Of a stretch of 64,000 nucleotides of DNA, positions 35,532-53,920 are shown piece after piece; position 1 is the first letter of the stretch, and each line of letters begins with the position of its first letter. Source of the stretch: Geobacter sp. DSM 9736 (lineage in GTDB: Bacteria > Desulfobacterota > Desulfuromonadia > Geobacterales > Geobacteraceae); the NCBI RefSeq assembly GCF_900187405.1, contig NZ_LT896716.1, forward strand, positions 682,001 to 746,000, in the 5' to 3' direction. The notes under the pieces were generated by a model that worked only from the letters and a program-made list of their open reading frames with translations, was not told the DNA's origin and ran no database searches. The position numbers and the translations under genes are program-made.

Positions 35532-35566
35532 CCACAGGTTGTCAATCTGTGGTTTTGTGTTTTAAT
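35532..35566 (+). terminator. Short terminator after the cytochrome genes
   Basis: CCACAG (35532-35537) pairs with CTGTGG (35547-35552) and TTTTGTGTTTT follows. A modest hairpin of six pairs; it may leave some read-through into the secretion operon. Confidence 0.65.
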
Positions 35567-35596
35567 TTCACAATCTTTGTGTTAAACAAGTACGTT

Positions 35597-36805
35597 ATGT
35601 CGCTCTTCGTTTGCAAAATCGGTTCGGCCGACGGAAAGATCATCGAGCGGGAAGTCGAGGCCGAAAGCCAGGAAATCCTCCGGGAAAGTCTTGAGGAACA
35701 GGGCTACTTCGTTTTCGAGGTGAAAAAGAAACCGCTGCAGTTTCTTTGGGATAAGGGCCTCTCACGAAGAAAAATCGACAACAAGACACTCCTTACCTTC
35801 AACCAGGAACTGCTTGTCCTCATTAAGGCGGGTCTCCCAATTGTTCAGGCTCTTGATACGATTCTCGATCGCGGAGAGAAGGGGAAGCTGGTCGAGATAC
35901 TTCGCAGCATCAGAGAGGATGTAAAAGGGGGCACGGCGCTGTCGGATGCCTTCCAAAAGCATCCCGGAGCCTTTTCTCATCTGTATATTGCCTCAATCCG
36001 GGCTGGTGAACGCACAGGCGACCTGCCTCAGACCATCAGGCGCTATATCGCCTTCATCAAAATGACCGAGGGTTTCAGGAAGAAGGTCATTTCAGCGCTC
36101 TTCTATCCGGCGATCCTGCTGGTGGTCGCCACCCTGGCCATCGGCATGCTGCTCGTATATGTCGTGCCGACCTTCAGTCAGATCTATTCAGGATCCGGCT
36201 CGCAACTTCCGGTGCCGACTCAAATGCTGATCGGTTTTGCCACGGGCCTGAAGCGCTTGCTACCCATTCTGATTGTGCTGGCTATCGTCGGAACAGCCCT
36301 CTACCGCCGCTGGAGCAGGACAGAGCGGGGCCGCTTCATCGTTGACAGCTTCAAGCTGCGATTGCCGTTCGTAGGGAAGATGATGACCGAGTACGCTATC
36401 ACCGCCTTTGCGAGAACTCTCGGGACTGTAATGGCAAGCGGGATTCCCATTGTCGAATCGATGAAGATGTCAGTCGGTACTCTCAACAACAAGATGCTGG
36501 AACGAAAACTTCTGACTGCTGTGGGGAAGGTGGAGGAGGGGGTGAGCCTATCCTCCGCGCTTGAGAGTGTCAAGATCATGCCCCCCCTCGCGTTGAGGAT
36601 GATCGGAGTCGGCGAGACAACCGGCTCCCTTGAAGAAATGCTGCGCGACATAGCCGACTATTTCGAGGAGGAGATAGACCGTAGCCTTCATCTCGTAACC
36701 ACTGCCATCGAGCCAGCCATCATGATTATCATGGGACTTGTCATTGGCGTAATCATCATTACCATGTACCTTCCGATCTTCAAGATCGCCGGTACCGTAG
36801 GATAG
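35597..36805 (+). CDS. gspF: Type II secretion / type IV pilus inner-membrane protein F
   Basis: A 402-residue platform protein of the GspF/PilC family. Two GspF domains (about residues 50-170 and 255-380) each precede hydrophobic segments (ALFYPAILLVVATLAIGMLL and IEPAIMIIMGLVIGVIIITM). Signatures: LLTFNQELLVLIKAGLPIVQ and later MIGVGETTGSLEEML. It anchors the ATPase and the pseudopilus base. Start 35597 follows family length; its ribosome site is weak. First gene of the secretion operon; the ATPase starts ten bases after its stop. Confidence 0.9.
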   Translation: MSLFVCKIGSADGKIIEREVEAESQEILRESLEEQGYFVFEVKKKPLQFLWDKGLSRRKIDNKTLLTFNQELLVLIKAGLPIVQALDTILDRGEKGKLVEILRSIREDVKGGTALSDAFQKHPGAFSHLYIASIRAGERTGDLPQTIRRYIAFIKMTEGFRKKVISALFYPAILLVVATLAIGMLLVYVVPTFSQIYSGSGSQLPVPTQMLIGFATGLKRLLPILIVLAIVGTALYRRWSRTERGRFIVDSFKLRLPFVGKMMTEYAITAFARTLGTVMASGIPIVESMKMSVGTLNNKMLERKLLTAVGKVEEGVSLSSALESVKIMPPLALRMIGVGETTGSLEEMLRDIADYFEEEIDRSLHLVTTAIEPAIMIIMGLVIGVIIITMYLPIFKIAGTVG

Positions 36806-36814
36806 GCAGACATA

Positions 36815-38536
36815 ATGAGTTTCTCTTTCAGAAGAAAAAAGCTGGGCGACATTATGGTGGAAAAGGGGGATCTGACTCCTACCCAGCTCGCTTATGCTAT
36901 CGACAAACTGAAAGTTACCAACAGCCGCTTCGGAGAGATATGCCTGAATGACGGTCTCATTACCGAGACGGTTCTGTCGCGGACCCTCGCCGAGCAATTC
37001 GGTCTCGAGTTCATCGATCTTCAGGACTTTCGCCTGTCGGAAAGCATCATGAACTCGCTCACCCCGGACATCATGTACAGGTTTCAGTTCGTCCCCATAG
37101 AGCAACAGGGGGACGCGCTCGTTATCGCCATTTCAGATCCAACTGACGTAGTCAAACTGGATGAACTGGAATTGCTGCTTGATCGTCCGCTTATTTTCAA
37201 GATCGCGACCGCGAGCCAGATCGGCCAGGTTCTCAAGAAAGGGGAGGGTACCAGCCGGGTCCTCAAGGAAGTCTCCGAAGACTTCATGCTCCAGTTGGTG
37301 ACGGAGACCGAGAAAGGGGAGGAAATTCTGTCGGTGGAGAAGATCACCGCCGATACCAGCCCGATCATCAAGCTTGTGAACTCCACCGTACTAGACGCCC
37401 TGACCAAACGAGCGAGCGATATCCACATAGAAACCGCCCATGAGGGGGTCTCTATCAAATACCGGATCGACGGCGTACTGTACAAGGCGATGGACCCCAT
37501 CGATCTCCACTTTCAGGGACCCATCATCTCCAGGCTCAAGGTCATGAGCGAACTGGACATCTCAGAGCGGCGCATTCCCCAAGACGGCAGGTTCAAGGTC
37601 AGGATCAGCGACAAATCCATCGACTTCCGCGTCTCGATCATGCCGAGCGCCTTCGGTGAGGACGCGGTCATACGTATCCTCGACAAGGAAAGCATCGCCA
37701 CAGATCTGAAGGGGCTGACACTCGAAACGCTCGGAATGGCGCAACGCGAAATCAAGCGTTTCCGTAAGATGATTCGCGAACCTTACGGCATGGTGCTCGT
37801 CACAGGACCAACGGGATCCGGTAAAACCACTACGCTCTATGGAGCTCTCACTGAGATTCATTCGGGTGAAGAGAAGATCATAACTATCGAAGATCCGGTC
37901 GAATACCTGCTGAAAGGCATTGTCCAGATTCCGGTAAACGAGAAAAAAGGACTGACATTCGCCAGAGGGTTGCGTTCGATACTGCGTCACGACCCGGACA
38001 AAATCATGGTCGGCGAGATCCGTGATCCTGAAACAGCTCAGATCGCCGTACAATCAGCTCTCACAGGCCATCTCGTCTTCACAACCGTACATGCCAACAA
38101 CGTTTTCGATGTCCTCGGCCGGTTCATCCATATGGGAATCGACCCTTACAATTTTGTATCATGCCTCAACTGCGTCATGGCCCAGCGTCTCGTGCGAAAG
38201 CTTTGCCTGAAATGCAAGTACCCGGTGCAGCTTTCAGATGATACGCTCAGAGAGTCGGCAATAGACCCCGAGCGCTGCAGGGGGGTGACCTTCTATGATT
38301 CAAAAGGGTGCGACGACTGCAACGGTACAGGCTATCGGGGGAGGGCGGCAATCGTCGAGCTTCTCGATCTTAACGATGAAATACGGGAACTGATCATTAC
38401 AAAATCCTCCGCACTCCAGCTAAAGAAGGCAGCTTCGGAAGCCGGAACCGTATTCCTGCGTGAATCGGCGGTGGAAAAGGTGTTGGCGGGAGAGACCACA
38501 TTGCGGGAAATCAACCGTGTCACCTTCGTAGAGTGA
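36815..38536 (+). CDS. gspE: Type II secretion / pilus assembly ATPase E with MshEN-like N-terminus
   Basis: A 573-residue hexameric ATPase. Walker A GPTGSGKTTTLYG near residue 335, Asp box ITIEDPVEY, Walker B DPDKIMVGEIRDPETA, and a zinc tetra-Cys motif (CLKC near residue 467, CDDC near 498) as in GspE/PilB. The N-terminal 150 residues hold two repeats of the MshEN type: KLGDIMVEKGDLTPTQL and RFGEICLNDGLITETVL followed by RTLAEQFGLEF. That domain binds c-di-GMP in other systems. Powers pseudopilus assembly in the cytoplasm. Confidence 0.94.
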   Translation: MSFSFRRKKLGDIMVEKGDLTPTQLAYAIDKLKVTNSRFGEICLNDGLITETVLSRTLAEQFGLEFIDLQDFRLSESIMNSLTPDIMYRFQFVPIEQQGDALVIAISDPTDVVKLDELELLLDRPLIFKIATASQIGQVLKKGEGTSRVLKEVSEDFMLQLVTETEKGEEILSVEKITADTSPIIKLVNSTVLDALTKRASDIHIETAHEGVSIKYRIDGVLYKAMDPIDLHFQGPIISRLKVMSELDISERRIPQDGRFKVRISDKSIDFRVSIMPSAFGEDAVIRILDKESIATDLKGLTLETLGMAQREIKRFRKMIREPYGMVLVTGPTGSGKTTTLYGALTEIHSGEEKIITIEDPVEYLLKGIVQIPVNEKKGLTFARGLRSILRHDPDKIMVGEIRDPETAQIAVQSALTGHLVFTTVHANNVFDVLGRFIHMGIDPYNFVSCLNCVMAQRLVRKLCLKCKYPVQLSDDTLRESAIDPERCRGVTFYDSKGCDDCNGTGYRGRAAIVELLDLNDEIRELIITKSSALQLKKAASEAGTVFLRESAVEKVLAGETTLREINRVTFVE

Positions 38537-38611: not shown

Positions 38612-39538
38612 ATGTTATTTTCCCGCAAAGCCGTCGGACTCGAAATATGCCAGGAAGGGGTCAAGATGGTCTCCATCATGGGAGACCGGGAGAGGATCAG
38701 GGTCGATTCCTTTTCTAACGGCTCATTCGGCGGCGACACATTGAAGCTTTCGCTCAGGGAGCAGAACGTGCTGAACCCCGCCGGCTTCGTCGCCACGGTT
38801 CGTGAGACTTATCTGCGGCTGTTGACGAAGGTTGAGCAGGTTTCCGTTTCGCTTCCCGATTCCATCGGTCGTGTAATGCTGGTGGACCTGGAAACCCGCG
38901 TGAAGAATAGGGAGGAGGGGGCCAATCTGATCAGGTGGAAGCTGAAGAAGAACTTCCCCTTCGATATCAGCGATGCCCACCTCGACTATCAGATCCTTCA
39001 GGAAAAGGAAACCGGAGAGGTAACAGCGCTCGTCTCGTTGATTTCCCGCACCGTGCTTCACCAGTATGAAGATCTGCTGGGTGAGGCCGGCCTTCAGCCG
39101 GGCAGGATAGATTTCACTACCTTCAATCTGTACAGCCTGTTTTCCAAGCGAATTGATCTTGCCGACAACGCCGCACTTCTCACCTGCTATGACGAGATTG
39201 TGAGTATCCTCATCTTTTACGGCGGCGTTCTCACTTTCTACCGCGCCAAGGAAATTCCGGGTGGCATGCGCGATGCCAACAGAATCTACCGGGAGATAAA
39301 CAGCTCTCTGCTGGTTTATAATGACAAGTTTCCCAATTTCAGTGTCGGCGAAGTGTTCTACATCGCATCACCATTCGATGCCGAATCGTTCGGCTCGGTC
39401 GTAGCCGAAGCGCTTGCGCAGGAGCCGGTCCTGCTCGATGTCGGGCGACTGGTTACGTTCAAGAATGAATCGTCGGCGGACAGAGCCGGTCTCTTTTCAC
39501 TGGCTGCGGCTCTGGGTGCCGCGGTGAGGAGCTTCTGA
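38612..39538 (+). CDS. pilM: PilM/GspL-like actin-fold assembly protein
   Basis: A 308-residue cytoplasmic protein of the PilM/GspL-N type. It starts with FSRKAVGLEICQEGVKMV, and VSVSLPDSIGRVMLVDLE and RWKLKKNFPFDISDAHLDYQ (quoted in part) match the family. No membrane segment is present, as for PilM and unlike GspL. It should bind the N-terminus of the PilN-like protein encoded next. The stop TGA overlaps the next ATG by one base. Confidence 0.85.
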   Translation: MLFSRKAVGLEICQEGVKMVSIMGDRERIRVDSFSNGSFGGDTLKLSLREQNVLNPAGFVATVRETYLRLLTKVEQVSVSLPDSIGRVMLVDLETRVKNREEGANLIRWKLKKNFPFDISDAHLDYQILQEKETGEVTALVSLISRTVLHQYEDLLGEAGLQPGRIDFTTFNLYSLFSKRIDLADNAALLTCYDEIVSILIFYGGVLTFYRAKEIPGGMRDANRIYREINSSLLVYNDKFPNFSVGEVFYIASPFDAESFGSVVAEALAQEPVLLDVGRLVTFKNESSADRAGLFSLAAALGAAVRSF

Positions 39539-40068
39539 TGCGGCTAAAGATTAACCTGGCATCGCGAACCTATCTCAACCGCAGGCAGTTCAACGTGGCC
39601 ATTGCGTTGGCCTTTGCCGTTCTCGGCCTTGTTCTTGTCTTCAACATCGGAACAGTTTCACGTAACGCCGGCGAGATATCCATCGCTGCACGTCAGATAG
39701 CGCAGTACGAGGGGAAACTTACAGGAGCTGTTCCGGAACAGGACTACAAGGCTCTGCTGGACAGGATCAAGTTTGCGAACGAAATCATAGACAGAAAAAC
39801 CTACCGATGGACCGCACTTCTGGACAAGCTGGAAGGGGTGGTCCCGGAAGGGATTGCCATAACGACAATCGATCCCGATACGAAAACCGGTAAATTGAAG
39901 ATAAGCGGGGCTGCACGGTCTTTCAAGAACCTTCGCCAGTTTCTCGAGAACCTGGAGGGATCCGAGGATTTTGCTGAAGTTTTCCTTGTAAGCCAGGCGG
40001 ATGTGAAGGTTGGTCAGACGCAGCAAGGCATAAGCTTCAGTATCGATTCGAAGGTGCGGCTCCCATGA
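39538..40068 (+). CDS. pilN: PilN-like inner-membrane protein
   Basis: A 176-residue bitopic protein: short cytoplasmic start MRLKINLASRTYLNRRQ, which holds the INLAS motif that docks to PilM, then a membrane helix at about 22-40, then a coiled-coil and ferredoxin-like periplasmic part. Overlaps its neighbours on both sides (one base with pilM, four bases with pilO). Forms the alignment complex between ATPase and secretin. Confidence 0.85.
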   Translation: MRLKINLASRTYLNRRQFNVAIALAFAVLGLVLVFNIGTVSRNAGEISIAARQIAQYEGKLTGAVPEQDYKALLDRIKFANEIIDRKTYRWTALLDKLEGVVPEGIAITTIDPDTKTGKLKISGAARSFKNLRQFLENLEGSEDFAEVFLVSQADVKVGQTQQGISFSIDSKVRLP

Positions 40069-40619
40069 ATATTGAATTTATCCGACAGGTAGTCCAGACC
40101 CGGCAAATGACCTTCGGTGCCCTCGCTCTGCTCCTCATCGCGAATCTTGGCCTTTATCTGTTTACCACCATCTATCAGGCCCCCCGTCTGTCCGCCCTTC
40201 AGGCCCAGGCGGCGGAAAAACGGCAACTGGCAAGTGCCGGAATCACCCAGGATGCTGCAACCATCTTTCGACAGGGTAAAGCGGATCTGGCCACCTGGGA
40301 ATCCCGGATTGCTCCGAAAAAGGAGTTCGCGAGGTTCGTGGGTGAGCTTTTCGAAGTAGCAGCCGGGAATTCCCTAAAGGTCGGCGGCGTTACATACAAG
40401 GTGGCTCCCATCAAGGAAGAAAAAAATCTTCTGGCTTTCTCCATCGGCTTCAATGTAGCAGGTAAATATGCAGGCATCAAAAGCTTCATTTCGGACCTTT
40501 CCCGTATGCGCGACATCATGTACATCGAGAACCTGGCGCTTAACAACCCTCGTGCCACCGAGGAGGTCGTGGACCTTAAGCTTCAGCTGACCGCCATTTT
40601 CCGTATGGAGGGGACATGA
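40065..40619 (+). CDS. pilO: PilO-like inner-membrane protein
   Basis: A 184-residue bitopic protein with one membrane helix (about 18-38, GALALLLIANLGLYLFTTIY) and a periplasmic ferredoxin-like domain (about 90-175, ending in LKLQLTAIFRM). Partner of the PilN-like protein; joined to it by an ATGA overlap and to the next gene by another. Confidence 0.82.
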   Translation: MNIEFIRQVVQTRQMTFGALALLLIANLGLYLFTTIYQAPRLSALQAQAAEKRQLASAGITQDAATIFRQGKADLATWESRIAPKKEFARFVGELFEVAAGNSLKVGGVTYKVAPIKEEKNLLAFSIGFNVAGKYAGIKSFISDLSRMRDIMYIENLALNNPRATEEVVDLKLQLTAIFRMEGT

Positions 40620-41263
40620 ACCGGCAGAAGCTGATCCTCGCCATACTAGTCGTACTGTTGATACTGTCACTTGTCTACAGCTTTTGGCGAATGCCCCGGC
40701 AGCAAGCCGCGGATACGAAAAAAGGTGCTCCTTCCGTCGCTCCTGCGCAAAGACGGCCGATCAAACCTGCTGCGGGTGCTCAGTCCGCTGCCGCAGCACC
40801 ACAGAAACGGGACGACCGCAAGCTGCACCTGGATCTCCTCGATTCCGCACCTCCTGCGTTTGCCGGTTTCCGGCGCAATATCTTCCAGCCGATATTCAGG
40901 GAGGAAGCCAAAGTTGCGCCCTCACCCCCTCCCGCCCCACCGGTGAGGAGACTTCCCGTACCGCCGCCCCCGCCGATATCTCCGCCCCCGCCTGCTCCGC
41001 CTGCTGCGGCAGAGCCTACCCCCGTTCAAAGGGAAATGGCGAGGTTCACATTTCTCGGTTTCCTGAAGAAGGACAACAGGAAGACGATCTTCCTGTCCAG
41101 TAACAATGAGATATTCCTGGTTAAAAAAGGTGATAAAATTGCTGGCAAATACGAGGTAAGCAATATCACCGACGAGGCTCTTAGCATAAGCATCCTTCCA
41201 GACGGAGGAGAGATAGTCATTCCCCTGGTGGAGAACAAGCCTCTCAGCGCGCCCCGGAAGTAG
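40616..41263 (+). CDS. PilP/GspC-like protein with proline-rich linker
   Basis: A 215-residue protein: one N-terminal membrane helix (LILAILVVLLILSLVYSFW), a flexible Ala/Pro region, a second Pro-rich run at about 100-130 (RRLPVPPPPPISPPPPAPPA) and a C-terminal beta domain (ARFTFLGFLKKDNRKTIFL, then GDKIAGKYEVSNI) like the homology region of GspC or PilP, which touches the secretin N0 domain. Fits as the link from inner membrane to secretin. Overlaps pilO by four bases. Confidence 0.78.
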   Translation: MNRQKLILAILVVLLILSLVYSFWRMPRQQAADTKKGAPSVAPAQRRPIKPAAGAQSAAAAPQKRDDRKLHLDLLDSAPPAFAGFRRNIFQPIFREEAKVAPSPPPAPPVRRLPVPPPPPISPPPPAPPAAAEPTPVQREMARFTFLGFLKKDNRKTIFLSSNNEIFLVKKGDKIAGKYEVSNITDEALSISILPDGGEIVIPLVENKPLSAPRK

Positions 41264-41309: not shown

Positions 41310-43877
41310 ATGGTATTCATAAAGAAATCGGTTCTGATGCTCTGCCTTGCTGCTGCCGTTTCCGGCTGCGCGGCGGGGAGGTCAGCCTTCAACAAAGCGG
41401 AGAAGCTGGAGCGGGAAGGGAATCTGGACGACGCCGTCGTCAAATATGCAGAGGCAGCCGCCGCCAATCCCGATGTTGGGGAATACCGCCTGCGTTTTCT
41501 CAAGGCAAGCGAGAAGGCGGCTCGGGAACATTTTGCCAAAGGGGACAGGTTCTTTGAAAACAAGAAGTACGATGATGCCCTGAGAGAGTATCAGACTGCA
41601 TTCACCCTAGATCCTTCTTTTATTCGTGCTAAGCAGCAAGGCGAGCTTGCGGAAAAGCTCCGGAATGCGCAGTTCTTTTTCAGCGAAGGCGTATCTTTGG
41701 AGAAGGACCGCAAGATCAGGGAGGCCATTCGTGCCTACCAGAAGGCGTTGGAGTTCGATCCCGAAAGCCGGGAGGCGAAGGATGCAGTGGAGCGTCTCCA
41801 GAAAAGCCGGAGGACGAAGCTCGACGGCACCGAGCTCAATCTCAAGTCGAACAAACCGATCACCCTCAAGTTCAAAGACGCGAAGATCAAAGAGGTTTTC
41901 AACATCCTTTCTCAGCTTTCGGGGATCAATTTCATCTTCGACGAAGGGCTGAAAGACCAGAATGTCAGCGTATTTCTGGAGAACGCAACCTTTCAGCAGG
42001 CCCTCGACATCATCACCGGCATCAACAAGCTTGGGAAGAAGGTGCTAAACGAAAGCACCATCATCGTCTATCCGAAGAACCCGGAAAAATCGAAACAGTA
42101 TGAGGAGCTGTACGTACAGACTTTCTTTCTCGACAAGCTGGATGCTAAGAAGGCCGTCAACCTTATACGGACCATGCTCCAGGTGAAGAAGATCTACGTT
42201 AACGAGGAGATGAACGCCATCGTCATTCGGGACACACCCGAAGTCATCGAGGTGGCGCAGAAGATCCTAGATGCCAATGATGTTCCCGACGCGGAGCTTG
42301 TCCTGGAAGTCGAGGTGCTTGAGGTAAGCAACGAAAACAAAGAGAACTTCGGCCTTGGACTGTCGCGGTATTCGATATCCGCAGCAGCGGCAGCGAGTGG
42401 TTCGAACTCGTTCCTGTCGGACACTCTGCCGACGACCATTCAGACAACGACAGATGGTACGGGTACAGGTACGACAACAACTACCTCTACTACTCCCTCA
42501 AACCTCCTGCAATTCTTCAGCTACAGGGGATACGGCGGATTCCTGACCGTGCCCAATGCCACATTCAACTTCGCCAAGTCTCTCGGAAAAGGTGAGACTC
42601 TTGCCAACCCGCGACTCCGGGTAAAGAACAGGGAGAAGGCGAAGTTCAATGTCGGCCAGCGGGTGCCGATCACTACAACCTCCACACCTACCACGGGCGG
42701 ATTCAGCGTTAACGTCCAGTACGTGGACGTAGGGGTGAAGCTCAACGCGGAACCGACGGTCCAGTTGAACAATGAAGTGACGATGAAGGTGAGCCTCGAA
42801 GTAAGTTCCATAATCGGCAGGCAGAATGTCGGCAGCGATGGGGGCACCACCGTTGTTACCATAGGCACGAGAAATCTGGACACGGTGCTGAGTCTCAAGG
42901 ACGGGGAAACGAGCATCATAGGCGGCCTCGTGGACGATTCCAAGCAGATGAGCAAGCAGAAGGTATACCTCCTTGGGGACATACCGCTCATCGGACCGCT
43001 CCTTACAAATCATTCAACAGAAGGCAGGAAGAGTGAGCTGATTCTGGCCATCACTCCCCACATTGTGCGGGGTATAACCGTGCCCGAGCTGGATGTGGCT
43101 GCGTTCTGGTCCGGGAGAGAGGATGAGCCTGCAGTGGGCAAATCTTATTCCTCCTTCCAGGAGGTGGAGCCTGCTGCGGACCAGGCGGCACCCGCTCCCC
43201 AGGCTCCGGCTGCAGCTCCGAGGCCGGCGCTCCCTGCTGCTCCTGCTGTCGCGCCTGTTCCTGTTCCGGTGCCGTCTCCCGTTCCTGCGCCTTCCGCCGG
43301 AATTGCGCAGCCTGCACTGCCACAGGCAGCTCCGGCCCCTGAACCGGGCTCTCCGTCGGACGCCGGCAAGATGCCGCCTCCTGCGTCCGACACGGGTGCT
43401 GTACCGGGTGCCGCTCCTCCCGCACCTGCAGCAGCTTCCCCCTCAGCGCCGCCTCCGCCTGCTCCTAGAGCTGCTCTGAGTGTCACAGCGCCGAAATCGA
43501 TTAAAAAGAACGACCAGTTCAAGGTCGATGTTCAGGTCTCCAATGCTGCGAGCATCTCCAAGGCGGCATTTACCTTCGTGTACGACCCGATATTCGTCGA
43601 ATTCGTCAGCGCCGCGGAAGGTCCCTTTATGAAGCAGGACGGGAAGCCCACAACCTTTCAGAATACCGTCGACAAAGGTACCGGCCAGGTATCGGTGACC
43701 ATCAACCGGGCTCCCGATGCCGGGAGCATAAGCGGCGGCGGAAGCCTTATGAGCGCTTTATTCAAGGCTCGAAACCAGGGACCTGCAAACTTCGGCTTCC
43801 TGGGCGTCACCCTTTCCGATGTCGGGGGTAAGGCTCAGGAAACCATTCCCTATAACACGGTAGTTGAGGTAAAATAG
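41310..43877 (+). CDS. gspD: Secretin lipoprotein with TPR N-terminus and C-terminal cohesin-like domain
   Basis: An 855-residue outer-membrane secretin. Lipobox AVSGC with Cys20; TPR-like helices to about residue 170; STN/N0-type and N1-type domains (KPITLKFKDAKIKEVFNILS, then FDEGLKDQNVSVFLENATFQ); secretin barrel up to about 590 (VPITTTSTPTTGG, GLVDDSKQMSKQKVYLLGD); an Ala/Pro linker at about 600-720; and a C-terminal 135-residue domain matching the cohesin pattern (APKSIKKNDQFKVDVQVSNA, then KAAFTFVYDPIFVEFVSA). The cohesin-like tail is not part of standard secretins. The ATG at 41310 follows AAGGAGAGGACCCTG and gives the compact lipoprotein signal; the frame opens at GTG 41277. Confidence 0.9.
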   Translation: MVFIKKSVLMLCLAAAVSGCAAGRSAFNKAEKLEREGNLDDAVVKYAEAAAANPDVGEYRLRFLKASEKAAREHFAKGDRFFENKKYDDALREYQTAFTLDPSFIRAKQQGELAEKLRNAQFFFSEGVSLEKDRKIREAIRAYQKALEFDPESREAKDAVERLQKSRRTKLDGTELNLKSNKPITLKFKDAKIKEVFNILSQLSGINFIFDEGLKDQNVSVFLENATFQQALDIITGINKLGKKVLNESTIIVYPKNPEKSKQYEELYVQTFFLDKLDAKKAVNLIRTMLQVKKIYVNEEMNAIVIRDTPEVIEVAQKILDANDVPDAELVLEVEVLEVSNENKENFGLGLSRYSISAAAAASGSNSFLSDTLPTTIQTTTDGTGTGTTTTTSTTPSNLLQFFSYRGYGGFLTVPNATFNFAKSLGKGETLANPRLRVKNREKAKFNVGQRVPITTTSTPTTGGFSVNVQYVDVGVKLNAEPTVQLNNEVTMKVSLEVSSIIGRQNVGSDGGTTVVTIGTRNLDTVLSLKDGETSIIGGLVDDSKQMSKQKVYLLGDIPLIGPLLTNHSTEGRKSELILAITPHIVRGITVPELDVAAFWSGREDEPAVGKSYSSFQEVEPAADQAAPAPQAPAAAPRPALPAAPAVAPVPVPVPSPVPAPSAGIAQPALPQAAPAPEPGSPSDAGKMPPPASDTGAVPGAAPPAPAAASPSAPPPPAPRAALSVTAPKSIKKNDQFKVDVQVSNAASISKAAFTFVYDPIFVEFVSAAEGPFMKQDGKPTTFQNTVDKGTGQVSVTINRAPDAGSISGGGSLMSALFKARNQGPANFGFLGVTLSDVGGKAQETIPYNTVVEVK

Positions 43878-43900: not shown

Positions 43901-44392
43901 ATGAAACGTCTGAATACCAAGGGGCTGACGATTGTCGAACTGGTCGTCACCATGGCCATACTGTCCGTACTTGCGGCATTGGTTCTGCCGTCTGCGCAAC
44001 TGGTCGCCAAGCGGAACAAGGAGATCGAACTGCGGCGGAACCTGCGGGTAATCCGCACAGCGATAGACGATTATTACAAGGCGTACCGTGACGCTGTGGA
44101 GAGGGACAAAACAAAGGCCCCTTCCATCAAGGAGTCGGGATATCCTAAGACGCTTGAGCTTCTTGTCGAAGGGGACGATTTCGGAAAAGTCGACGGGCAG
44201 AAGAGGAAGTTTCTCCGGAGGATACCCGCCGATCCTTTCAATCCTCCCAAGCCTGGAGAGAAGCCGGAATGGGGTCTGCGTTCTTATACGGACAAGCCGG
44301 ACAGCACCATATGGGGTGAGGAAGACGTTTACGATGTCTACTCTCTGAGCGAAGACACCGCCATCGACGGGACCAAATACAACGAATGGTAG
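43901..44392 (+). CDS. Type II pseudopilin
   Basis: A 163-residue prepilin-like protein. The leader MKRLNTKG ends in Gly before LTIVELVVTMAILSVLAAL, the class III signal with Glu at +5; residue +1 is Leu rather than Phe/Met. The C-terminal domain has the pseudopilin loop (FLRRIPADPFNPPKPGEKPE, then WGLRSY) and ends KYNEW. Substrate for a prepilin peptidase that is not in the window. Confidence 0.9.
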   Translation: MKRLNTKGLTIVELVVTMAILSVLAALVLPSAQLVAKRNKEIELRRNLRVIRTAIDDYYKAYRDAVERDKTKAPSIKESGYPKTLELLVEGDDFGKVDGQKRKFLRRIPADPFNPPKPGEKPEWGLRSYTDKPDSTIWGEEDVYDVYSLSEDTAIDGTKYNEW

Positions 44393-44426: not shown

Positions 44427-44840
44427 ATGATACTGAACAAGCTGGTGAAGAAACAGAAAGGTTTCACCCTCATCGAACTGATGATAGTGGTGACGATCGT
44501 CGGCATTCTAGCCGCCATCGCGGTACCTAACTACAAGTGGGGGATCATCAGAGCCAAAGAGGCGGTGCTCCGTGAAAACCTCTACAACATGCGCAACGTC
44601 CTTGACCAGTTCTTCGCCGATCAGGGGAAGTTCCCCGACAGCCTTGACGAACTCGTGGAAAAAAAGTACATGAAGTCGATTCCTAACGACCCCATTACAG
44701 GGAAACCCGAGTGGGACGTCATGCCACCCCCTGATCTGGGGCAGGTCGTTTCGGAGGAAAAGGGCCTCGGCAACGTGTACGATGTGAAAAGCACCTCCTC
44801 CCTCGTCGGTTCCAACGGTATTCCGTACGGTCAGTGGTAG
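44427..44840 (+). CDS. Major pseudopilin GspG-type (OxpG-like)
   Basis: A 137-residue prepilin: leader MILNKLVKKQKG, then FTLIELMIVVTIVGILAAIA with Phe+1 and Glu+5. The C-terminal region SIPNDPITGKPEWDV and the end NGIPYGQW follow the GspG pattern. From memory, G. sulfurreducens OxpG, needed to export the multicopper protein OmpB, is a pseudopilin in the same gene context; identity here is by synteny and length only. Confidence 0.88.
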   Translation: MILNKLVKKQKGFTLIELMIVVTIVGILAAIAVPNYKWGIIRAKEAVLRENLYNMRNVLDQFFADQGKFPDSLDELVEKKYMKSIPNDPITGKPEWDVMPPPDLGQVVSEEKGLGNVYDVKSTSSLVGSNGIPYGQW

Positions 44841-49965: not shown

Positions 49966-50074
49966 TACTCCACTGTCGCCCGCGCCATACACCCAACGCC
50001 TCTCGGTGCTGTTCCCTTTACTTTTTTACATCCCTATCTTATAGTGGCTGCACCGAACTTTAATGGGAGGGTTT

Positions 50075-51826
50075 ATGAAAAAGGGGATTTTCCTGACTTT
50101 GTTCATGTCTCTGATAGCATTAGCCGCTGGATGCGGCGGTGGCGGTGGAGGCGGTGGAGGCGGTGGAGCTACTACGACGATATCAGGGACGCCGTTTAAA
50201 GGCCCTTTTGTCAGCGGAACGGTTAATGTATATGATGTTTCGGGTGGCATTACGACAAGCGGAAGACAACTCCTTGGAACCGGCGCAATAAACTCCGATG
50301 GCTCCTACACAATAACCATTCCCGCAACATCAAATCCGGTTATGGTAGAGGTGGTAGGGGGCAGTTACAAGGACGAGACCAGCCCTACTGGTGCCCTGGT
50401 AGCTCTTGCCACGCCTTTGCGTGCTGTGATACCAAGTGGTGCTTCAAATGCTTCAGTTGCGGTGACACCTTTCACGGAACTCGCTACACAACGGGCAGCA
50501 GTTGCGACAACATCGATTCCCGCAGCAATAACTGAGGCGAATCAAAAGGTATCCCTTCTTTATCAAGTCCCCGACATTATTTCGACAACACCTATAGATC
50601 CTTCTGTAGCTTTCCCCTCAGGGTCGCTGGCTTCCAGCAAAAATTATGGCATTGCGCTTGCTGCTGTTTCCCAGCTAGCGAAGACACAAGGTAGTCTGGC
50701 AGCGGCGCTAAACAGGTTGTCGGTTAACTCCGGCACTATTTCAGATGTCGCAGCAGCCGAATTTACCACGGCGTTGACAACCTTTCTAACTTCGCAACAG
50801 AATGCCAACAGTGCTACGGTTCCTTCCCTTGATGCTACTCCTTTTAGGAATGTAGGATCGCAGGTAGCTGTGACACTCCAGCCGCAGAAAACCAGGGCTA
50901 TCGCCAATGGAGCTGATAGCGTCACAATGACTGCTTCACTCTCTCCTGCGGTACCAGACAACTCCGAGGTGACTTTCTCAATAACTTCCGGGAATGCGGT
51001 TTTCTCCAACGGGCAAAACAGTATTAAAGCCGGAACAGCGGGAAGTGCCGCAGCCGCCACTATCACTGCAACCGCTGCAGGCGCGGTTACGGTCAATGCG
51101 ACATACCTACCGGGAATATCCGGCAACTCTACCGTGACGTTTGTTATCCCTACGGTCAGTATATCTGCTTCCCCGAACGCAGCCCTACCCAACGGGACAA
51201 ATAGAATCACACTGACTGCCACGGTGGCCTCAGGGGTACCTGAGGTTACAACGGTCTCCTTTGCGGTGTCGTCCGGAACGGCAACTCTTGTAACCCCAGC
51301 GACTGTAACGCTAGTCAACGGCGTTGCTTCTGTTGACGTGGTATCGTCAACTCCTGGAGACGTTACAGTCGCTGTTACATATGCTCCAGGAGTTTCATCC
51401 AGTGCAACAATAAAATTTGCTACGCCTGCAAAAGCCGTGGTCACACTTGCCCTCAAGCAGACGAGGAACAACGTACGCTTCCTTGATCTGAATCTTGATC
51501 ACTCCCCTGCGTCAGGTGCGACCTATAGCAGCAACAGGACGCTCAATTCGGACATGAATGTTTTTGGAGTCTTCCCCAGTGCCGCTACGCTTCGGGTGAA
51601 CATTTTGCGGAGCTCCGGAGTGACAGGCTTCAATGCCAGTGCGGGCACTCCTTTTGTGGAGTTTACCTATGATATAACAGGGAATGTCCCGGTGTTCTCC
51701 ATCAGCAACGCTGTTCTTGGGTTATTTAATCCGGCGACACCCGATGTCTCTACTGAGGTTCCCCTTACTACCGACGATTTCAATATTTCCGTGTCCTTTT
51801 TGGATGCACAGGGCAACCCCCTGTAG
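50075..51826 (+). CDS. Surface lipoprotein with Ig-like repeats and a C-terminal beta domain
   Basis: A 583-residue lipoprotein. Signal ends LAAGC, followed by an 11-Gly tether. Then a beta-rich N-terminal domain (TPFKGPFVSGTVNVYDVSGG, later VTPFTELATQRAAVA), two Big_1/invasin-type Ig-like repeats at about 275-470 (RAIANGADSVTMTASLSPAV and ALPNGTNRITLTATVASG), and a C-terminal domain (KAVVTLALKQTRNNVRFLDL ... FVEFTYDITGNVP) that is related to the next gene's product. No enzyme motif. GGGAGG precedes the ATG at 50075; an in-frame ATG lies 12 bases earlier. Likely displayed at the cell surface. Confidence 0.78.
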   Translation: MKKGIFLTLFMSLIALAAGCGGGGGGGGGGGATTTISGTPFKGPFVSGTVNVYDVSGGITTSGRQLLGTGAINSDGSYTITIPATSNPVMVEVVGGSYKDETSPTGALVALATPLRAVIPSGASNASVAVTPFTELATQRAAVATTSIPAAITEANQKVSLLYQVPDIISTTPIDPSVAFPSGSLASSKNYGIALAAVSQLAKTQGSLAAALNRLSVNSGTISDVAAAEFTTALTTFLTSQQNANSATVPSLDATPFRNVGSQVAVTLQPQKTRAIANGADSVTMTASLSPAVPDNSEVTFSITSGNAVFSNGQNSIKAGTAGSAAAATITATAAGAVTVNATYLPGISGNSTVTFVIPTVSISASPNAALPNGTNRITLTATVASGVPEVTTVSFAVSSGTATLVTPATVTLVNGVASVDVVSSTPGDVTVAVTYAPGVSSSATIKFATPAKAVVTLALKQTRNNVRFLDLNLDHSPASGATYSSNRTLNSDMNVFGVFPSAATLRVNILRSSGVTGFNASAGTPFVEFTYDITGNVPVFSISNAVLGLFNPATPDVSTEVPLTTDDFNISVSFLDAQGNPL

Positions 51827-51965: not shown

Positions 51966-52442
51966 ATGAGGCATAAAAGTCTTGTAACGGTGGTGCTGCT
52001 GTATGCTATTATCACGCTTGCCGGCTGCGGGGGTGGTGGTGGAGATGGTGGCGGGGCGGCAGCCCAGCAGCCGACCACCGCCGTAGTGAGAGTAGCCCTG
52101 AACACACAGGTAAACAACCTGGCGGTTCTTGTATTCGACCTTATTCCCACAGCAGGCACCACATTTACGACAGTCAGGGGCATCAACGAAGCATCGGTCA
52201 ACAACTTCGTCGGACCTCTCGACCAGACGAACCCTCAGTCCACAACCTACACGCTGATAAGCTCCGGGGGGATCAACGCGGCAGCCAACAGGGATATTCT
52301 CGAATTTACATACGCCATCGGCGCGGGTGCGCCCACCCCGACCTTCCAGATCGGAAGCACCGTCAGCGCCACTACCACCACCGGGCAGGATGTGCCGATC
52401 GTTCCTGCCAACTTCGTTGTAACGACACAACTCAGTCCATAA
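51966..52442 (+). CDS. Small lipoprotein sharing the Ig-lipoprotein C-terminal domain
   Basis: A 158-residue lipoprotein with lipobox LAGC and a Gly-rich tether (CGGGGGDGGG). The remaining 125 residues align with the C-terminal domain of the preceding gene: AVVRVALNTQVNNLAVLVFD against AVVTLALKQTRNNVRFLDLN, and ILEFTYAIGAGAPTPTFQIG against FVEFTYDITGNVPVFSIS. A cohesin-like beta-sandwich is possible. AAAGGAGGGATCGGCT supports the ATG. The next gene begins 14 bases after the stop. Confidence 0.75.
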   Translation: MRHKSLVTVVLLYAIITLAGCGGGGGDGGGAAAQQPTTAVVRVALNTQVNNLAVLVFDLIPTAGTTFTTVRGINEASVNNFVGPLDQTNPQSTTYTLISSGGINAAANRDILEFTYAIGAGAPTPTFQIGSTVSATTTTGQDVPIVPANFVVTTQLSP

Positions 52443-52456
52443 GGAACAGGAACAGT

Positions 52457-53920
52457 ATGAAGAAAAACAAAATCTTTTCGCTCTTAGTCGTTGCGTTTCT
52501 CGTTATAGCCTCCTCTTCCATGGGGTATGCGGCACGACTAACTCTCACCTCCACTGGTCCTGGGGTTTTTCTTCTGCAAGCTGGTGAGTTCTCTAGTTTG
52601 AGTGGTGTTGTAGTCGAGATGGCATATGATGTAAACCTACTTGAAAGTCCCCAGGTTCAGATAGGGAGCGTTGTCAATGTGTCAGGAGCTTTCAAAACAA
52701 TTAATACCGAAAAAATGCCCGCAGGAAAGCTGCGTTTTTCAGTCGCCGGTTTAACGAAGTTCGGAAGCAGTGGGGCTGTTGCTGTCATCAGCTTTAATAA
52801 AAAAGTTAAGGACGCTTCTGCGACTGCTCAATTGACGTCCGTGGATGCTTCAACGCCCGAGGCGCAACTAGTACGGGTGAATTATAGTACAGCGCCGGTA
52901 TCCGATACCGCCTTTGCTAGTAGCACACCGACTACTTCCGACGAGGGCGGTGGTACAACCACTACCACGGGCGGTGGTACAACCACTACCACGGGCGGCG
53001 GTACAACCACTACCACGGGCGGCGGTACAACCACTACCACGGGCGGCAGCTGGTCAGGTCCAGGCACCATAACTTTCCCGGGCGATTCGAGCGATAAACC
53101 GGCAGAGGATACAGCGCGTACCGAAACGCCCCAGGAAACGCCCCCGTACCAGCAAGTGGAAGAGCGTGTCGCTGCGGCGTCCGCCGAGGAGCAGCCGGCA
53201 TCGAAGCAGGAGGAGGCGAAGCAGGGAGGGGAGAAGTTCACTTCCTATCCCAGCGTTCTGGAAAGATTCAAGAAGTTTGAAGGGGAGAAGACACCCAGGG
53301 CGTTGCTGGCGCTCTTCGATGCTCCTGTTGCCCCCGGTATCAAGCAGGAGCCCGAAATCGCCTTGAGTGATGGAACAACTAAAGTCAGGGTAACCATCGA
53401 GTTGCCCGCGGGGGGTAAGGAGAGCCCGAATTTTGCTCTCAAGCGCGCGAAGCTGGTGTCTCTCAAAAATGACGAAAAGAACAGGTGGCTCGTGGAAGCA
53501 TTGCCTTCCAAGGATGCCAGCGACGTGAGCATTACCGCGCTGCAGGGCAACTCGATGACGGAAATCCCGCTGCTGGTGGTCCAACCGCTCCCGCCGAGCA
53601 TCCTCCCCAAGGAGGGCTTTACGGAAGCTGCCCTGGCTCAGTTCCTCAAGGAGCGCGGGACGGAGAAGGAGCCGAAATTCGACCTGAACGGCGATAAGGT
53701 GCGCAACTATGTCGACGACTATATCTTTGCAGCCAACTATGTTGCCAAACACGGGAAGAAGAAGGTGGCCGAGGACCTGAAGAAAGAGGACCAAAAGAAA
53801 CAAGCTGAACAGCAGAAAGGTGCAGTGGCTCCCCCGGTCGTTGCGCCGCCAGCTAAACCGGGCCAGGATAAACCTGCTTCGAAACAGGACTCGAAAAAGC
53901 CTGCAAAGAAAAAGAAGTGA
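52457..53920 (+). CDS. Exported protein with cohesin-like domain and dockerin/EF-hand-like loop
   Basis: A 487-residue secreted protein. Signal peptide ends SMGYAA. Residues 25-150 have a cohesin-like beta pattern (SGVVVEMAYDVNLLESPQVQ, then LRFSVAGLTKFGSSGAVAVI). A four-fold GGGTTTTT repeat follows, then a charged, Gln/Glu-rich central part. Near residues 409-421 DLNGDKVRNYVDD fits the calcium loop D-x-N-x-D-x-x-x-N-x-x-D of type I dockerins and EF-hands, followed by YIFAANYVAKHG. The C-terminus is Lys-rich and disordered. Only one such loop is seen where dockerins usually have two. Immediately downstream of the small lipoprotein. Confidence 0.72.
   Translation: MKKNKIFSLLVVAFLVIASSSMGYAARLTLTSTGPGVFLLQAGEFSSLSGVVVEMAYDVNLLESPQVQIGSVVNVSGAFKTINTEKMPAGKLRFSVAGLTKFGSSGAVAVISFNKKVKDASATAQLTSVDASTPEAQLVRVNYSTAPVSDTAFASSTPTTSDEGGGTTTTTGGGTTTTTGGGTTTTTGGGTTTTTGGSWSGPGTITFPGDSSDKPAEDTARTETPQETPPYQQVEERVAAASAEEQPASKQEEAKQGGEKFTSYPSVLERFKKFEGEKTPRALLALFDAPVAPGIKQEPEIALSDGTTKVRVTIELPAGGKESPNFALKRAKLVSLKNDEKNRWLVEALPSKDASDVSITALQGNSMTEIPLLVVQPLPPSILPKEGFTEAALAQFLKERGTEKEPKFDLNGDKVRNYVDDYIFAANYVAKHGKKKVAEDLKKEDQKKQAEQQKGAVAPPVVAPPAKPGQDKPASKQDSKKPAKKKK
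52946..53041 (+). repeat. Four tandem 24-bp repeats
   Basis: Four units of GGCGGYGGTACAACCACTAC plus CACG lie head to tail in frame, each coding for GGGTTTTT. Units 1-2 have GGTGG, units 3-4 have GGCGG. The repeat makes a flexible, possibly glycosylated linker and may vary in copy number. Confidence 0.93.

Follow-up and report, generated by a model that had tools for sequence, protein, structure and literature searches.

The stretch analysed here, called the window below, is 64,000 nucleotides long (G000:C1:682001-746000) and comes from a Geobacter genome, G000, that is assembled as a single contig of 3.96 Mb. An open reading frame on its forward strand (41310-43877) translates into 855 amino acids with no internal stop. 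It encodes a secretin and lies within an operon of secretion-platform genes:

35549-36805, + strand: GspF/PilC-like inner-membrane platform protein (PF00482, 6.7e-56)
36815-38536, + strand: GspE/PilB-like ATPase (PF00437, 1.5e-130; NCBIfam c-di-GMP-binding MshE-related motif over cut-off)
38612-39538, + strand: PilM-like protein (PF11104, 9.1e-8)
39538-40068, + strand: PilN-like protein (PF05137, 8.9e-17)
40065-40619, + strand: PilO-like protein (PF04350, 1.8e-6)
40616-41263, + strand: Pro-rich protein at the PilP/GspC position (placed by layout and gene-order conservation only; no Pfam match)
41310-43877, + strand: lipoprotein secretin, whole gene (855 aa; lipobox VSGC, Cys20)
41406-41804, + strand: N-terminal TPR module of the secretin, residues 33-165 (PF07719, 7.8e-14, and others)
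41865-42293, + strand: N0/N1 periplasmic domains (STN and Secretin_N, by Pfam)
42576-43070, + strand: secretin domain, residues 423-587 (PF00263, 1.8e-40)
43074-43454, + strand: Ala/Pro linker, residues 589-715 (127 aa, with great variation in length between relatives)
43455-43874, + strand: C-terminal cohesin module, residues 716-855 (PF00963 over cut-off; AF2 model; structural matches)
43901-44392, + strand: pseudopilin 1 (N_methyl PF07963; GspG-like below cut-off)
44427-44840, + strand: pseudopilin 2 (N_methyl PF07963; GspG-like below cut-off)

The pseudopilins are followed on their 3′ side by ftsE, ftsX, an M23 peptidase and an S41 protease. Geobacteraceae possess a Pul system that is described as neighbouring cell-division genes and as needed to secrete the multicopper oxidase OmpB (PMC3543383); the account of this Pul/Oxp type II system is that of Mehta 2006, as cited in PMC3543383. 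The present locus, with its pseudopilins and adjoining cell-division genes, agrees in layout with that description, and on layout and literature together the 41310 protein is best read as the outer-membrane pore of a type II secretion system (T2SS) of the Pul/Oxp kind. No description of a cohesin tail on a Pul/Oxp secretin was found in the open-licence papers searched.

The protein scores 162.8 bits against the GspD model TIGR02517 (curated cut-off 351) and 167.1 bits against the PilQ model TIGR02515 (curated cut-off 284), and because it falls under both cut-offs it is a divergent secretin. It has in common with GspD/PulD and PilQ the N0/N1 domains (STN at residues 206-256, Secretin_N at 269-328), the secretin domain, a C-terminal extension after the barrel, and a T2SS/T4P platform-gene operon. 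The differences lie at the two ends: the known secretins carry a C-terminal S-domain and work with a separate pilotin, whereas this one ends in a cohesin on a Pro/Ala tether (26% Pro, 27% Ala) and is fused N-terminally to a TPR lipoprotein module. The TPR fold is of the type found in separate pilotins such as PilF and TadD, and the built-in module may make the secretin self-piloting.

The original prediction was that a cohesin-like domain follows the Ala/Pro linker, and this was borne out by family assignment, structural model and profile comparison. Residues 722-826 match Cohesin PF00963 (5.4e-8; 33.6 bits, cut-off 24.1), and an AF2 model of residues 716-855, built with 44 homologues as input, reached a mean pLDDT of 94.4. 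Foldseek and VIA-align each listed 50 matches for this model, every one of them a cohesin or cohesin-like module: Foldseek gives 2jh2 (2.2e-10), the best match listed by VIA-align is 5nrk_A (Z 18.2, rmsd 2.1, 135 residues aligned), and the non-cellulosomal cohesin 2xdh of A. fulgidus gives Z 18.0. Neither an S-domain nor an Ig fold unrelated to cohesins turned up. A phmmer search of PDB sequences with the single tail sequence gave no match, but a profile of the tails did match cohesin chains (3l8q, 4.8e-6); since the profile reaches PDB cohesins by sequence alone, the cohesin pattern is not due to chance. The tail is a true cohesin in fold and in sequence family; dockerin binding is a separate and putative matter. 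It shares whole-domain fold and sequence profile with both cellulosomal and non-cellulosomal cohesins (5nrk, 1ohz, 2xdh), and dockerins are encoded in the same genome here as they are there. Unlike those cohesins, it is fused to the secretin of a Gram-negative secretion system. There is one cohesin over the Pfam cut-off in G000, and no cellulosome scaffoldin with several cohesins was found in it. An exported 148-aa open reading frame elsewhere in the genome (L002:1459-1905) is cohesin-like but under that cut-off.

A survey of related secretins showed that the fusion is not a local one: when reading frames were followed at 45 Geobacterales loci, the tail was readable in 43, making it a family trait. 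The exceptions are L043, in which a run of masked bases (N) interrupts the domain, and L044, in which the frame ends before the tail. In the alignment the linkers are unconserved and very different in length, and the cohesin aligns throughout. PF00963 is over its cut-off in 37 of 40 Geobacteraceae genomes. Across the phylum the tail profile (E 1e-6) has matches in 14 of 297 genomes; among these are frames 786-867 aa long from further families within the order and class. The tail is therefore concentrated in the Geobacterales group, yet extends beyond one family. An apparent lack of the tail in Geomonas/Citrifermentans was discarded: tblastn alignments ended near residue 620, and frame reading showed a cohesin beyond longer linkers. 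Pul-type secretins occur twice in G233 (L198), with about 8 kb between them: the 788-aa copy ends in the linker and the 786-aa copy keeps the cohesin. In two genomes of one genus the tail is detached, possibly through assembly error: the secretin frame of G001 stops in the linker with a cohesin remnant in another frame (L197:2705-3073), and that of G002 also stops in the linker, its cohesin lying intact in an overlapping frame of its own (L196:2865-3395). G035 has a linker only, with the cohesin absent, and no Pul-type secretin was found in G036.

A second gene of the window enters the argument because its product had been proposed as the tail's docking partner:

52457-53920, + strand: linked secreted protein with signal peptide, cohesin fold, Gly/Thr linker, Ig-like domain and a single conserved F-hand (orthologues in 18 of 45 loci)
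52532-52930, + strand: its cohesin-fold domain (AF2; best matches are cohesins, 5nrk_A Z 12.7)
53336-53590, + strand: its Ig-like domain, directly before the F-hand (6qud, Z 8.5; model residues 269-353)
53585-53764, + strand: its dockerin-like C-terminal stretch (calcium-loop positions 1, 3, 5 and 12 are D, N, D and D, followed by DYI)

The model of this protein has pLDDT values mostly of 69-83 in residues 1-90 and lower ones after that, with a disordered linker; PF00963 is over cut-off in eight of ten orthologues scanned, though not in the window copy. In the calcium loop D384, D388 and D395 (positions 1, 5 and 12) and the following D396, Y397 and I398 are invariant among orthologues, and N386 (position 3) is at least 90% conserved, with Asp in L044. 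The first dockerin repeat of the window copy is degenerate. The dockerin family PF00404 gives 14.8 bits at most in ten orthologues and no match in the window copy; the C-terminal stretch of the family matches PDB dockerins weakly (E 0.065 and 0.22), and hhalign against the dockerins of this genome (the A5 group, below) gives a probability of 38% over 12 columns. With no match over cut-off and a single conserved loop rather than two repeats, the protein does not belong among the dockerins, and the idea of it as a plain dockerin client was dropped in view of the weak PDB and hhalign matches. Of the proposed partnership, then, the calcium-loop module stands, but it is only weakly dockerin-like and the protein itself has a cohesin fold.

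Relatives with the Ig-like domain and F-hand were found in 35 of 40 Geobacteraceae, counting as complete a match in G031 that is split over two contigs; the matches in G034 and G038 end before the F-hand, and the G038 copy as read has neither cohesin nor F-hand. G000 has a second copy of this type (L211:5362-6519). The order of cohesin, Ig-like domain and calcium loop is that of cellulosomal adaptor scaffoldins (cohesin plus X-dockerin), with the Ig-like domain positioned like the X-module; unlike adaptor scaffoldins, the 52457 protein has one conserved F-hand, and no cellulase system was identified. Just upstream, two poly-Gly lipoproteins (50063-51826 and 51966-52442) have a C-terminal domain of about 130 residues in common with each other and with relatives that other genomes encode around this locus. 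They were rejected as extra cohesins (the C-terminal part of 50063 and 51966; hhalign probability 1.3%).

Dockerins of a more typical kind are found elsewhere in the genome. PF00404 yields one clear dockerin in G000, along with weaker matches that form the C-termini of large exported proteins. From an alignment of 27 sequences, the A5 dockerin group, a profile was built. Its members have two Asp loops, the second of which contains an insertion, and the group's profile covers both repeats of the type I dockerins 2ccl_B (1.4e-8) and 1ohz_B (1.7e-8); judged from their sequences, the A5 members are genuine two-repeat dockerins. The profile has 10 matches in G000 and matches in 35 of the 50 genomes searched. 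Seven of the 10 G000 proteins were read (L243, L244, L245, L246, L247, L248 and L004): all stop just past the dockerin, and signal peptides are visible by eye in most of the seven (the start of L245 is uncertain). On G000:C1, L243, L244 and L004 lie near positions 1855958, 376087 and 1682228. L243 is a multicopper oxidase of 1364 aa, and domains among the proteins read include Cu-oxidase_2, NHL with Ig repeats, a DUF5122 propeller and InlB-type repeats (the last in a protein with a weak polysaccharide-deacetylase match as well).

A dockerin on a large multicopper oxidase is present in G000 (one), G022, G026 and G039, and genes uniting dockerin and laccase are reportedly highly expressed by Geobacter in Fe-reducing soil (PMC6199725). 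That every large multicopper oxidase carries one can be rejected: it is absent in G004, G005, G006, G028, G062, G233 and others. The OmpB-type oxidases of the Geobacter-like G004, G005 and G006 carry other repeats at the end instead of a dockerin, so substrates of this class need not have one. Several genomes of the same family encode proteins with cohesin and dockerin together, adjoining each other (G014:C14:129756-133188, G015:C3:113969-117336, G017:C15:198838-202267 and on G024:C333), which suggests a wider docking network. In two class relatives (L190, L191) PF00404-like Asp loops lie inside cytochrome-like proteins and not at the C-terminus.

Tail and dockerins tend to be absent together. 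An intact fused tail is missing from four of the 40 Geobacteraceae (G001, G002, G035 and G036); in most of the other 36 the intact fusion is scored as a PF00963 match in a secretin-sized open frame, not each sequence being read. A5 dockerins occur in 32 of these 36 and in none of the four (Fisher p 7.7e-4, kinship ignored), and the full cohesin-Ig-F-hand protein in 33 of 36 against none of four (p 3.8e-4, kinship ignored). With five order-level genomes added, the values become 1.1e-3 and 2.6e-5. G001 and G002 belong to one genus and G035 and G036 to another, several assemblies are fragmented, and the losses come to about three clades; for these reasons the joint absence is suggestive and not proof. 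The tail is also found without an A5 dockerin (G030, G034, G037, G038 and G233, and the class or phylum relatives G159, G255, G295 and G130), so either dockerin docking is not its sole role or the partner there goes unrecognised. G132 has no tail and one weak A5 match.

Given that the pore carries a cohesin and that G000 encodes matching C-terminal dockerins, the pair may be how the machine picks its cargo. Each secretin subunit would carry its cohesin at the end of a long, flexible Ala/Pro tether, and a ring of at least a dozen subunits would hang an equal number of cohesins in the periplasm round the pore entrance. These could bind the extreme C-terminal dockerins of Sec-exported proteins (multicopper oxidases, NHL/beta-propeller and Ig-repeat proteins among them) and concentrate this cargo at the pore ahead of export, the dockerin serving as an address tag; the 52457 protein could be an adaptor within the same network. 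In studied systems the secretin C-terminal S-domain binds pilotin lipoproteins (PulD-PulS, GspD-AspS; PMC3542185) and the C-terminus of the RcpA secretin binds the TPR lipoprotein TadD (PMC10499894). Because these partners are periplasmic, a platform at this position would more likely load cargo inside than display it outside, and we infer a periplasmic position for the tail. Secretion of OmpB via the Pul system (PMC3543383), taken with the dockerin on a G000 multicopper oxidase, was counted in favour of cargo capture. The original prediction that the pore may serve exported proteins with calcium loops as a docking platform thus gains from the C-terminal dockerin set and the joint absence, though this set offers better candidates for the partner than the 52457 protein. 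Capture of dockerin-tagged cargo by a periplasmic ring of secretin cohesins is a reading we hold tentatively, at a little under even confidence. Somewhat more doubtful is the general form of the idea, in which a modular tag would mark the substrates of a T2SS, cohesins built into the secretin reading the dockerins at their C-termini.

Part of the same evidence could be read otherwise. Other cohesins (the 52457 family, Geomonas-like proteins) could be the real partners of the dockerins, which speaks against cargo capture, and the tail might instead bind the linked 52457-family protein, the two forming a structural or assembly element (a brace, a pilotin-like part or a wall anchor) and not a cargo receptor. 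That family lies 3-10 kb downstream in many genomes and is co-retained even when unlinked, its one or few copies per genome suit a component, and in the order-level set its co-loss with the tail is stronger than that of the A5 dockerins (p 2.6e-5). The F-hand stretch, however, is weakly dockerin-like, tail-bearing relatives outside Geobacterales have no 52457-type protein, and the association statistics ignore kinship; on balance such a pairing seems unlikely. About as improbable, if by a hair less so, is that the cohesin fold was kept for a ligand other than a dockerin (another Pul part, peptidoglycan or a glycan), with co-occurrence reflecting shared ancestry. The few independent losses and the persistence of tails in genomes with no recognised dockerin fit this, but neither dockerin group is found in the four Geobacteraceae that lack an intact fused tail, and G000 has abundant genuine dockerins and no other cohesin above the Pfam cut-off. 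Tails without dockerins, together with dockerin-free OmpB-type oxidases, leave substantial weight with both of these explanations.

The cohesin could also be shown outside the cell and anchor dockerin proteins to its surface after export, in the manner of a cellulosomal anchoring scaffoldin. Cohesin-dockerin pairs are known for surface attachment, the dockerin proteins here bear Ig-repeat and beta-propeller domains, and cohesin/dockerin proteins of syntrophic sulfate reducers are proposed surface adhesins (PMC10553843). The binding of periplasmic pilotins by the C-terminus of studied secretins (PMC3542185, PMC10499894) argues against it, as does the lack of any sign in this analysis that the tail is threaded through the outer membrane, and we regard surface anchoring as quite improbable.

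Cohesins, dockerins and the Pul-type secretion system are each already known; what may be new is their combination in a secretin with a genome-wide dockerin set, of which no description turned up in the open-licence papers searched. Secretin-cohesin architectures from other phyla are on record in domain databases. Recruitment of substrates to the T2SS was still called elusive in a 2021 study, with signals that are composite and structural (PMC7949064). If periplasmic capture of dockerin-tagged cargo is correct, pore cohesin and cargo dockerin would form a defined receptor and tag for the choice of T2SS cargo, and this would bear on how relatives of Geobacter export the oxidases and surface proteins that they use on metal oxides.
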